DNA of 64,000 bases, from contig CP003096.1 in assembly GCA_000233775.1 (NCBI GenBank), positions 1,452,501 through 1,516,500 of the forward strand, in the 5' to 3' direction. Under the pieces are notes generated by a model. The model was given only the letters and a program-made list of their open reading frames with translations, searched no databases and was not told the DNA's origin. The translations under genes were made by a program, and so were the position numbers. This stretch comes from Thermovirga lienii DSM 17291. GTDB lineage: Bacteria; Synergistota; Synergistia; Synergistales; Thermovirgaceae. Numbering within the stretch: the stretch's first letter is position 1; the number at the start of each line of letters is the position of its first letter. This document shows, one piece after another, positions 32,849 to 37,229 of this stretch.

Positions 32849-34244
32849 AGTAGTGTCCATTATGATGGTGTAAAATTGATGGCTTGAAGCAGGAGAGCCA
32901 CCCCTCCCTCTGGTAGATAAGAAGTAGCTTAATCTTAATCATCAGGAGGGAGAAAAGATGGCTCACTACCAGGTTACCGTAGACTGTGATCTCTTGCAAG
33001 GATTATTTATTCGGGATGATGGATTGGCTCGGTTGGTGGAGAACATCGTGAATCAGATACTCGATGCTCAGGCTACCGAACAACTCAGGGCCAAGCCATA
33101 CGAACGTACCGAAGAGCGGCAGGGGTACCGCAACGGGTATCGGGATAAGCTGCTCAAGTCTCGCGTAGGAGAACTTACGCTTATGGTTCCCCGTCTCCGG
33201 AGCGGGCACTTCTCCACGGAGCTTTTCGAGCGGTACCAGCGGAGCGAGCAGGCGCTCTTGCTGGCCATGGTCGAGATGGTCGTGAACGGCGTATCCACCA
33301 GGAAGGTAAGGGCGGTTGTTGATGAACTATGCGGCACGGAGTTCTCCAAATCCACCGTATCCAGCCTGTGCAAAAGACTGGACGACATCGTAAAGGAGTG
33401 GAACGAGCGAGATTTGAGCAGCCAGGAATACCCATTTCTCCTGGTAGATGCCATTGTCATCCGGGTGCGTAAAGGCGGCCGGGTACGGCTTTCAAGCGTA
33501 CTTCTCGCTACAGGGATCAACCGGGAGGGATACCGGGAGATTTTAGGGCTTATGCTCGGGGATAGCGAATCAGAGGCTGCTTGGTCGGAGTTCTTCGGCC
33601 GGCTCAAGGAGCGCGGTCTCAAGGGAGTGGACTTGGTTGTTTCGGATGATCACAAGGGCTTGATCAATGCGATAGAAACCCACTTCCAAGGAGCGACATG
33701 GCAGCGGTGCCAGACCCACTTTATCCGGAACATCCTGGACGCCTGTCCTAAGAGCCTCCAGGGCGACCTGCACGGGCGACTGCGGTTGATCTTCGACGCG
33801 CCGGATATGGAGACGGCCAGGCGGTTGCTGAACGAAACGATAGAGGCCTTTGGCGCCCGGGCGCCAAAGGCGGTAGAGCGACTTGAAGCTGGTTTCGAGG
33901 ACGCAATGGCGGTGATGGCACTACCAGGGCGCTACCGGAAGCGGCTGCGCACCACCAATGGAGTCGAGCGGCTCAACCAGGAGATCCGCCGGCGGGAGCG
34001 GGTGATCCGAATCTTCCCTAACGAGGAGTCGGCTGTGAGACTGATCGGAGCAGTGCTTGTAGAGATCGACGAGGTGTGGACCACAGGAAAGCGCTACTTT
34101 GATATGGCAGAGTATTGGGAGTGGAAGGCTAACACAGAAAAACAGCAGAAGGAGGTGAATAATGCCGATACCCAGGTAAATGTAGCTTAAAACGGGGTGA
34201 TCTTATCTGCCAGAGGGAATTTACACACAAATTTGGACTTGACC
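32849..34244 (+). mobile_element. IS256-type insertion sequence, copy B (1396 bp)
   Basis: Same length as copy A with an identical transposase, in the opposite orientation. It runs from AGTAGTGTCC to GGACTTGACC and is flanked by the 9-bp direct repeat GCGTCCACC at 32840-32848 and 34245-34253. It interrupts the nitronate monooxygenase gene near its 3' end. Copies A and B form a large inverted pair 17.9 kb apart. Confidence 0.95.
32958..34190 (+). CDS. IS256-family transposase, copy B
   Basis: 410-residue DDE transposase, identical in protein sequence to copy A, with the catalytic Asp, Asp and Glu all present (LLVDAIVI, VVSDDHKG, NGVERLNQE). ATG 32958 follows CAGGAGGGAGAAAAG. The C-terminus is NADTQVNVA. 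Because nothing separates the two copies at protein level, the spread is recent. Confidence 0.95.
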   Translation: MAHYQVTVDCDLLQGLFIRDDGLARLVENIVNQILDAQATEQLRAKPYERTEERQGYRNGYRDKLLKSRVGELTLMVPRLRSGHFSTELFERYQRSEQALLLAMVEMVVNGVSTRKVRAVVDELCGTEFSKSTVSSLCKRLDDIVKEWNERDLSSQEYPFLLVDAIVIRVRKGGRVRLSSVLLATGINREGYREILGLMLGDSESEAAWSEFFGRLKERGLKGVDLVVSDDHKGLINAIETHFQGATWQRCQTHFIRNILDACPKSLQGDLHGRLRLIFDAPDMETARRLLNETIEAFGARAPKAVERLEAGFEDAMAVMALPGRYRKRLRTTNGVERLNQEIRRRERVIRIFPNEESAVRLIGAVLVEIDEVWTTGKRYFDMAEYWEWKANTEKQQKEVNNADTQVNVA

Positions 34245-35284: not shown

Positions 35285-35980
35285 CTACGACCCAGCACCC
35301 TCAATGTTTTGCTTGGTCATCGCCAACTGATAGTTATTACTCATTTTATTACATAAACCCAAAACTCCGTTTATATATTTACTACCGTTCCTACCCAAGT
35401 ACCTTCCAAGAGCCTTTTTAACATCATAAGAACTTGATTTCATATACCATGAAAAGATGTAAGTTCCAGCTAATATGTTGTTCCTAGGCAATAACAAATC
35501 CTGGAGACTCCTTATCTGTTTGAATGCCGCCTTCAAGCCTTTTTTGTGGACTCGCCAGTTAATCTGCATAAGACCATAAGCATACTTAGACCTTGCATTT
35601 TTGTTTACCGTAGACTCCTTAATTATCATCGATGCGATCAGAAAAGGATCCACACCGAAAAGTTTTGAAGCTTCCATGACGTAGCCAGAATACTCCCATG
35701 CTTCCTCCCTCTCTAACTTGCGATTGGCTTTCAGAAAACTTTCCATTATGACGGTTCTCTTCATCAGGTATTCAACTTGGATTTTATCCGATCCATCTTC
35801 AGCGCTTGTGCTTTTTTGCTCCAACCTAACCAAGTAGTCCCCCTCAGCCAGAGAAGGGTTAGGCAAAAACAACGTCAAACTCACTGCAATCAGAACCGCA
35901 ACGATTGTGTATGAAAATATTCCTAGGTTATTCTTCAAATTGGTCCACTCCCTCATCAAATTGGCTGATTTAAAAACCAA
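35285..35980 (-). CDS. Exported lytic transglycosylase (SLT domain)
   Basis: 231 residues with an N-terminal signal/anchor helix (about 22-43, ending SLAEG) and a soluble lytic transglycosylase domain. The catalytic Glu is in SMIIKESTVNKNA near residue 117, followed by the family turn YAYGLMQINW near 133. It cleaves peptidoglycan between MurNAc and GlcNAc. The start is either ATG 35980 or ATG 35956; neither has a strong ribosome site. No partner genes are evident. Confidence 0.85.
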   Translation of the reverse strand: MVFKSANLMREWTNLKNNLGIFSYTIVAVLIAVSLTLFLPNPSLAEGDYLVRLEQKSTSAEDGSDKIQVEYLMKRTVIMESFLKANRKLEREEAWEYSGYVMEASKLFGVDPFLIASMIIKESTVNKNARSKYAYGLMQINWRVHKKGLKAAFKQIRSLQDLLLPRNNILAGTYIFSWYMKSSSYDVKKALGRYLGRNGSKYINGVLGLCNKMSNNYQLAMTKQNIEGAGS

Positions 35981-36008
35981 TCTAAAGTTTATCCTATAAA
36001 AAAGATGA

Positions 36009-36037
36009 GGGGCAAGCTTTTCTTTTCAGCTTGCCCC
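36009..36037 (-). terminator. Terminator of the selenoprotein gene
   Basis: GGGGCAAGCT and AGCTTGCCCC form a 10-bp stem, and on the minus strand it is followed by TCATCTTTTTT. It lies 33 bp after the stop codon at 36070. Confidence 0.85.
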
Positions 36038-36069: not shown

Positions 36070-36360
36070 CTAAAGTAGAGCCGTTGGCACGAACAAAACC
36101 CAATCGTCCCAGCTTCTCTGGGCCTCAACTCTAGCTGTGTTATGGGAAAACTTCATGTCCTTGGGAACCCAAATGGTTACGTCCTGACCTTCCAATGCAA
36201 CGTAATTCGAAGTGGTTTCAGGCTTGCCACTCTCAACGAGAGCCACAGGCACCCTGCATCAACCACCTCCAATGGAGGCCTCTACCACGTACCCAACGCC
36301 CCCCTGAGAAGTCAAAACCTCTTTAGCCTTATCCGATACCTCTAATTTTAAACTCACCAT
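36070..36360 (-). CDS. Predicted selenoprotein with Sec-Cys motif (in-frame TGA)
   Basis: A 96-residue protein if TGA at 36259-36261 is read as selenocysteine 34. The frame opens at ATG 36360 behind a strong ribosome site (AAGGAGGGTGTTC), codes for MVSLKLEVSDKAKEVL and so on to SIGGG, meets TGA, and continues without a break through CRVPVALVESGKP to TAG at 36070. Sec is followed directly by Cys, giving a redox pair after a Gly-rich turn, like the small HesB/IscA-sized (seleno)proteins with a Cys-Cys or Sec-Cys motif. A hairpin fitting the bacterial SECIS model follows the TGA. It has its own promoter and terminator. The function is unknown; a redox or metal role is inferred. A caller without recoding would report only the last ~60 residues. 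Confidence 0.85.
36219..36256 (-). promoter_or_regulatory. Bacterial SECIS-like hairpin after the TGA codon
   Basis: Counting bases after TGA on the minus strand: bases 3-6 pair with 37-40, 8-11 with 31-34 and 17-21 (CTCTC) with 25-29 (GAGAG), leaving the apical loop GTT at 22-24. The loop starts with G and lies 21 bases after TGA, inside the 16-37 window of the published bacterial model. An internal bulge sits between the two upper stems. Confidence 0.7.
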
Positions 36361-36395
36361 GAACACCCTCCTTAACTGTGAAAATGACAGGGTCA

Positions 36396-36458: not shown

Positions 36459-37229
36459 ATGACGCCTAGTACTGGAAAAAACGTAAACTTCAACAATCCA
36501 ATAAAGGTACTTTATGAGGACGAATACCTGTTCGCTGTAACTAAGCCTCCTGGGATGTTCGTTCATAGGACGGCTCTAAGCAGGGAAAGGGGATTTTTTT
36601 TGCTGCAGGAGGCTAGAAACCTTTATGGAAGTCACTTGTACCCAGTTCATAGGTTGGACAGACCCACCTCAGGAGTAGTCATTTTCGCAACAACCCCCCA
36701 AGTGGCCAGAGTTTTGGCTGAGTACTTCAGGAAGAAAGAAATAGAAAAATATTACATTGCCGTTGTGAGGGGTTGGACTGACACCTCAGGCGTAATAGAC
36801 TCTCATTTGGTTAAAATCACGGAAAATCCAACCCCGGTTGAGCAGCTCAAACAGCAAGAAGCAGTGACTAAATATGAAACCATCGCTAGAACCGAAATCC
36901 CTGTGGCTGTATCTAGATATCCAACTAGCCGTTACTCCTTGGTTCTTGCCAACCCCATCACGGGAAGGAGACATCAGATACGAAGACACTTCAAGCATAT
37001 CTCACACCCAATAATAGGTGATGTGCTATATGGAGACGGAAAGCACAACAGGTTTTTCCGCGATAACTTTGGCATAAAAAGATTGCTTCTCCACTCCTTC
37101 AGCATGAAGTTTAAGCACCCTGTATATGGACACACAGTAAAAATAACATCCCCCCCTGGAGACGATTTTATGGAAGTATTGTCCAAGTTGGGATGGAAGG
37201 AAGTAATGGAGGCACTTTTAGCAAAATAG
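36459..37229 (+). CDS. RluA-family pseudouridine synthase (TruC-like)
   Basis: 256 residues. Converts uridine to pseudouridine in tRNA or rRNA. The catalytic block YPVHRLDRPTSGVVIFA with its Asp lies near residue 67, KPPGMFVH near 30, and GRRHQIRRHFKHISHPIIGD near 170. The lack of an S4 domain and the short length resemble TruC (tRNA U65); the exact target is inferred. ATG 36459 has no clear ribosome site and may be nearly leaderless. It ends in a strong terminator. Confidence 0.88.
   Translation: MTPSTGKNVNFNNPIKVLYEDEYLFAVTKPPGMFVHRTALSRERGFFLLQEARNLYGSHLYPVHRLDRPTSGVVIFATTPQVARVLAEYFRKKEIEKYYIAVVRGWTDTSGVIDSHLVKITENPTPVEQLKQQEAVTKYETIARTEIPVAVSRYPTSRYSLVLANPITGRRHQIRRHFKHISHPIIGDVLYGDGKHNRFFRDNFGIKRLLLHSFSMKFKHPVYGHTVKITSPPGDDFMEVLSKLGWKEVMEALLAK

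Follow-up and report, generated by a model that had tools for sequence, protein, structure and literature searches.

Two described families of small selenoproteins bear on the gene studied here. The model NCBIfam NF041239, "CC/Se motif family (seleno)protein", covers a family predicted in Moorella thermoacetica with one selenocysteine (Sec) in the motif CxxU (PMC13188914, a 2026 review), and the motif of the HesB-like selenoprotein TIGR01911 is UxGP (PMC13188914). We analyzed a window of 64,000 nucleotides, i.e., the whole stretch from position 1,452,501 to 1,516,500 of contig CP003096.1 of Thermovirga lienii DSM 17291, to which the coordinates below refer. It contains a gene that standard annotation would split in two and that the comparisons below identify, almost with certainty, as a real selenoprotein gene.

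Layout of the gene and decoding of its in-frame TGA

When the minus strand is read from the ATG at 36360, 33 codons lead to an in-frame TGA, which is preceded by Gly-Gly-Gly and directly followed by a Cys codon; 62 further codons then reach the TAG (Table 1). The elements listed by the first-pass annotation (ribosome site, promoter, 33-codon frame, TGA-Cys, 62 codons, TAG and terminator) are all present, the promoter as a promoter-like site, and the Gly-Gly-Gly turn and the joined chain of 96 residues are likewise read in the sequence. The stretch that it had delimited is the gene itself, to which we can now assign the minus strand. The true start may be the GTG at 36357 (codon 2), giving 95 residues, because the congeneric orthologue (L016) has ATA at the position of the ATG of the window, followed by GTG.

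Framed by a promoter-like site, a ribosome site and a terminator, the gene is a single-gene transcription unit. The 50 nt around the terminator hairpin fold with -23.2 kcal/mol (z -5.24). A simple promoter/terminator scanner called no promoter and no terminator at this gene, since it accepts a -10 element only if this ends in T and a terminator loop only up to 8 nt, and an Rfam search around the gene returned chance hits alone. Elsewhere in the window, a 410-aa frame (32958-34190) adjoining a FabK-like gene has by eye the look of an IS256/mutator-type transposase.

Table 1. Features at the selenoprotein locus, in coordinates of the window
Feature	Position	Strand	Basis and remarks
Selenoprotein gene	36070..36360	-	96 residues; stop TAG 36072-36070 included; homologues align along the length
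TGA codon (Sec34)	36259..36261	-	TGA in 95/112 homologues, Cys in 10/112
Cys35 codon	36258-36256	-	directly after Sec34
Ribosome-binding site AAGGAGGG	36366..36373	-	direct reading; same motif upstream of orthologue L016
Promoter-like TTGATA-17-TATAAA	36396..36424	-	direct reading; scanner call absent
Intrinsic terminator	35997..36037	-	hairpin 36037-36009 plus T-run
Predicted SECIS apical hairpin	36229..36243	-	6-bp stem GCTCTC/GAGAGT, loop GTT 36237-36235; covariation
Wider fold around the UGA, perhaps the full SECIS	36202..36271	-	-29.4 kcal/mol, z -4.07
TruC-like RluA-family pseudouridine synthase, divergent neighbour	36459..37229	+	268 bits to NF008321; arrangement kept in congener
Lytic-transglycosylase-like protein, downstream neighbour	35285..35980	-	weak matches; neighbour conserved in congener

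When 188 genomes of the phylum were searched, the protein found homologues in 60 of them and its profile in 73. Among 112 distinct homologues, whose alignment spans the TGA, the seven sequences with neither TGA nor Cys in the Sec column carry another residue; the replacement of TGA by Cys, proposed as a check in the first-pass annotation, is found in ten. The homologues begin upstream of the TGA and not after it, the latter being the outcome that the same annotation had named as contrary to its reading. Four copies of the gene are present in the window's own genome, each with a TGA. It is these homologues that exclude chance, since a frame that stays open this far beyond a stop is by itself not very improbable. 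Comparison with the congeneric orthologue gives dN/dS of about 0.13 before the TGA and about 0.06 after it, and these values, rough because dS is high, point to purifying selection on both sides. A match in a Haloterrigena contig (L045) was rejected as a chance match within a membrane protein, and no plasmid relatives were found.

The window genome (2.0 Mb, 99.96% complete) contains selA, selB, selC and selD, the four genes whose presence it had been proposed to verify. SelB scores 374.7 bits and its gene lies close to selA; tRNA-Sec (selC) scores 77.5 bits; SelD scores 347 bits, and selD itself carries a TGA. With the conservation of the TGA, the selection on both sides of it, this machinery and the covarying hairpin described below, Sec insertion as first proposed is borne out, and the in-frame TGA is almost certainly read as Sec.

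A predicted SECIS hairpin and a tandem Sec-Sec family

The apical hairpin of the predicted SECIS lies within the codons for Ala-Leu-Val-Glu-Ser. A stem of 6 bp closed by a loop of 3 nt, for the most part GTN, recurs at a fixed position in the 95 genes that have the TGA, the loop being at +25 from the U of the UGA. Pairing is found in 497/570 cells of the alignment (87%), compared with 416 +/- 5 in shuffled alignments, none of 1000 shuffles being as good; all other loop registers reach a pairing of at most 0.69, and this slid-register comparison, unlike the shuffle test, does not ignore relatedness. Compensatory stems are recognized by eye, for instance GCTCTC/GAGAGC, GCCCTC/GAGGGC, GTCCTG/CAGGAC, GCCACG/CGTGGC and GCGCTG/CGGCGC. 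The choice of the Ala codon varies as well, being mostly GCT with a following Ser (AGY) and GCC with a following Gly (GGY). In the 17 homologues without TGA only 54% of the cells are paired, and most of these homologues have lost the GTN loop. Finally, a control stretch from the same genes folds less well than the region just 3' of the UGA. The comparative data thus predict a SECIS hairpin downstream of the UGA which covaries strongly and is degraded in the homologues without TGA. The conserved protein motif A-L-V-E/K/Q-S/G would then be partly dictated by an RNA signal within the coding sequence.

In one genome (G114; L066 / L040), a Sec copy (GAGUG) and a Cys copy (GLGCG) stand in tandem, the hairpin of the Cys copy being partly decayed; the pair is apparently the product of a recent Sec-Cys exchange.

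A distant relative of 96 residues with two consecutive in-frame TGA codons lies in the window's genome outside the window (L058:3300-3587, minus strand; G000:C1:1850300-1850587). Such relatives occur in 27 of 61 genomes and in 14 genera, most of them with both TGAs. The two codons are kept in 25 distinct sequences, and Cys-Cys occupies these two columns in four sequences. The hairpin, with its loop at +24 from the first UGA, is paired in 99% of cells vs 38% in the Cys-Cys forms. This family matches that of the window gene in a profile comparison (E 2.5e-7). None of its Pfam matches is convincing, and its NCBIfam matches, that to NF041239 among them, are only weak. The tandem UU motif has no entry in the table of the 2026 review (PMC13188914), and a literature search found none for bacteria. 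These sequences define a conserved, predicted Sec-Sec family related to that of the window gene.

Family, scaffold and gene neighbourhoods

NF041239 matches the window protein with E 4e-10 over 79/91 profile positions; the score of 39.6-39.7 bits, obtained with C put for Sec, falls 0.3-0.4 short of the curated 40-bit cut-off. Each of the 41 aligned members hits this model. The first-pass annotation had pointed to a family of (seleno)proteins with a Cys-Cys or Sec-Cys motif; the family stands, but the Sec-Cys pair does not hold as its conserved feature in this phylum. Indeed, this pair is real in the window protein, whereas among the homologues of the phylum it is Sec that is nearly invariant and the residue after it is Cys in only 18/95 Sec members, being otherwise Ala, Ser, Gly, Arg or another.

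A second, more remote relationship concerns the A-type carriers of Fe-S clusters. Profile-profile comparison with E. coli IscA/SufA/ErpA gives E 1.8e-5 with a probability of 78% over 88 columns, and in this alignment Sec34 falls on IscA Cys35, the first cluster-binding Cys. The Pfam model Fe-S_biosyn matches 6 of the 41 aligned family members (best 2.3e-5), the best relative scoring 25.0 bits with PF01521, below the Pfam gathering threshold of 26.3, and family members give weak hits to IscA, SufA, ErpA-related and IscA/HesB models. For the window protein itself, Pfam gave no match. Neither the protein nor the profile found anything in the PDB, and a single-sequence AlphaFold model (pLDDT 41) was uninformative and was not used. 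Overall, the protein looks distantly related to the A-type (IscA/SufA/ErpA, HesB) scaffold, from which it would have diverged far. Among 61 related genomes, the window genome included, no canonical A-type carrier scores above the PF01521 cut-off, and the sole weak match is a TGA-bearing member of the window gene's family.

The window copy stands alone and has no metalloenzyme neighbour; in the congener, as here, a TruC-like gene is divergent and a lytic-transglycosylase-like gene lies downstream. In about 15 genera, the commonest paralogue mostly follows an RluA-family pseudouridine synthase at a distance of 33-60 bp. The gene order observed there (L056 and its equivalents, about 15 genera) is phosphoglycerate mutase, YhaM-like HD protein, pseudouridine synthase, Sec protein and often glutamate dehydrogenase. 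Some neighbours (labelled 'c5') were set aside as probable antisense shadows of the pseudouridine synthase frame. The other paralogues, each on the same strand as its neighbours, are found within a NiFe-hydrogenase cluster (in the window's own genome, in the congener and in G184), with a 4-bp overlap into the start of an aldehyde:ferredoxin oxidoreductase gene (own genome), and 16-22 bp before iorAB, encoding indolepyruvate oxidoreductase (several genera). Oxygen-sensitive metalloenzymes thus account for three of the four paralogue settings.

Proposed function and comparison with known systems

From what was computed, namely Sec decoding, SECIS, conservation, the distant A-type kinship and the neighbourhoods, we infer a biochemical role and clients, most tentatively for the window copy. 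SelB, recruited by the SECIS hairpin inside the coding region just 3' of the UGA, would deliver Sec34 beside Cys35, and an A-type-like scaffold would carry this Sec where the A-type carriers have their first cluster-binding Cys. Together with Cys35, or with a C-terminal Cys in sister groups, Sec would bind or protect a metal, Fe-S or persulphide group, and the client enzymes would differ from one paralogue to another. As a whole, this explanation, a Sec protein on an A-type-like scaffold with a role in metal or Fe-S handling, seems to us probable. Its most specific part, in which the selenol-thiol pair binds, protects or delivers a soft metal, an Fe-S cluster or a persulphide for oxygen-sensitive enzymes with paralogue-specific clients, is quite possible and is put forward with reserve. 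Against an A-type-like role stands the position of the commonest paralogues, behind a pseudouridine synthase rather than a metalloenzyme. The lack of a metalloenzyme beside the window copy, and of a Pfam match and a C-terminal Cys-Gly-Cys in its protein, likewise counts against it.

The main rival of the metal/Fe-S role is a plain redox protein, in which a selenenylsulphide formed by Sec34 and Cys35 (in sister groups, by Sec and the C-terminal Cys) would reduce a partner or a peroxide without any metal. Sec beside Cys is a typical redox pair, and the placement of the second thiol appears complementary: core members with Cys after Sec have no C-terminal Cys (11/11), and those without it mostly have one (41/44), as if one partner thiol were needed. 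However, this pattern carries little weight despite a Fisher value of 3e-9, because it goes back to about two independent events and is without significance once the tree is taken into account; moreover, it would fit either role. Since most members have a residue other than Cys behind Sec, the scaffold is similar to that of A-type carriers and several paralogues sit with metalloenzymes, we consider the plain redox protein possible, if rather doubtful.

A selenol-thiol pair is a good ligand for soft metals. This property and the monocistronic window copy would suit a sequestering protein, binding a toxic soft metal or excess selenium for no client enzyme; such a role is nevertheless improbable, as the paralogues are coupled to specific enzyme genes and not to metal efflux or resistance genes. 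Finally, the reading in which the TGA is an ordinary stop, as in the standard bacterial code, closing a 33-codon frame or pseudogene before an unrelated or re-initiated 60-codon frame (a 60-aa ORF does open at a GTG downstream), is exceedingly improbable and is already refuted by the TGA kept in 95 homologues with Cys in 10 others, by the purifying selection on both sides, by the covarying SECIS and by the full Sec machinery.

Returning to the metal/Fe-S role, a broader proposal can be made for the phylum, speculative and on balance unlikely. The A-type scaffold would survive there solely in Sec-containing or Sec-derived form, as a set of diverging Sec proteins that includes a branch with two Sec in a row. 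Each of these proteins would use its selenol to handle Fe-S or metal for an enzyme or operon of its own, be it hydrogenase, aldehyde oxidoreductase, indolepyruvate oxidoreductase or an RNA-modification operon. In any case, an uncharacterised Sec family gains a testable frame: its scaffold resembles the A-type, a second thiol may be the partner of Sec, and enzyme genes lie next to several members.

Compared with the known systems, the A-type carriers (PF01521) have three conserved Cys, the last two in a C-terminal CGC, whereas the window protein has Sec in the first position and no C-terminal Cys; lacking this CGC and a Pfam match of its own, it would be a distant relative of these carriers, not a member. 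The HesB-like selenoprotein TIGR01911 is similarly a small Sec protein of the HesB superfamily, but its UxGP motif is not found in the window family, and its model has no match in 41 related genomes, the window genome included. The sequence places the window protein with NF041239, as a variant of this known family: the two are alike in size and in having Sec next to Cys (Gly-Gly-Gly-Sec-Cys in the window protein), and they differ in that the CxxU motif is absent from the window protein, where the residue three before Sec is Gly, the signature in this phylum being G-x-G-U-x.
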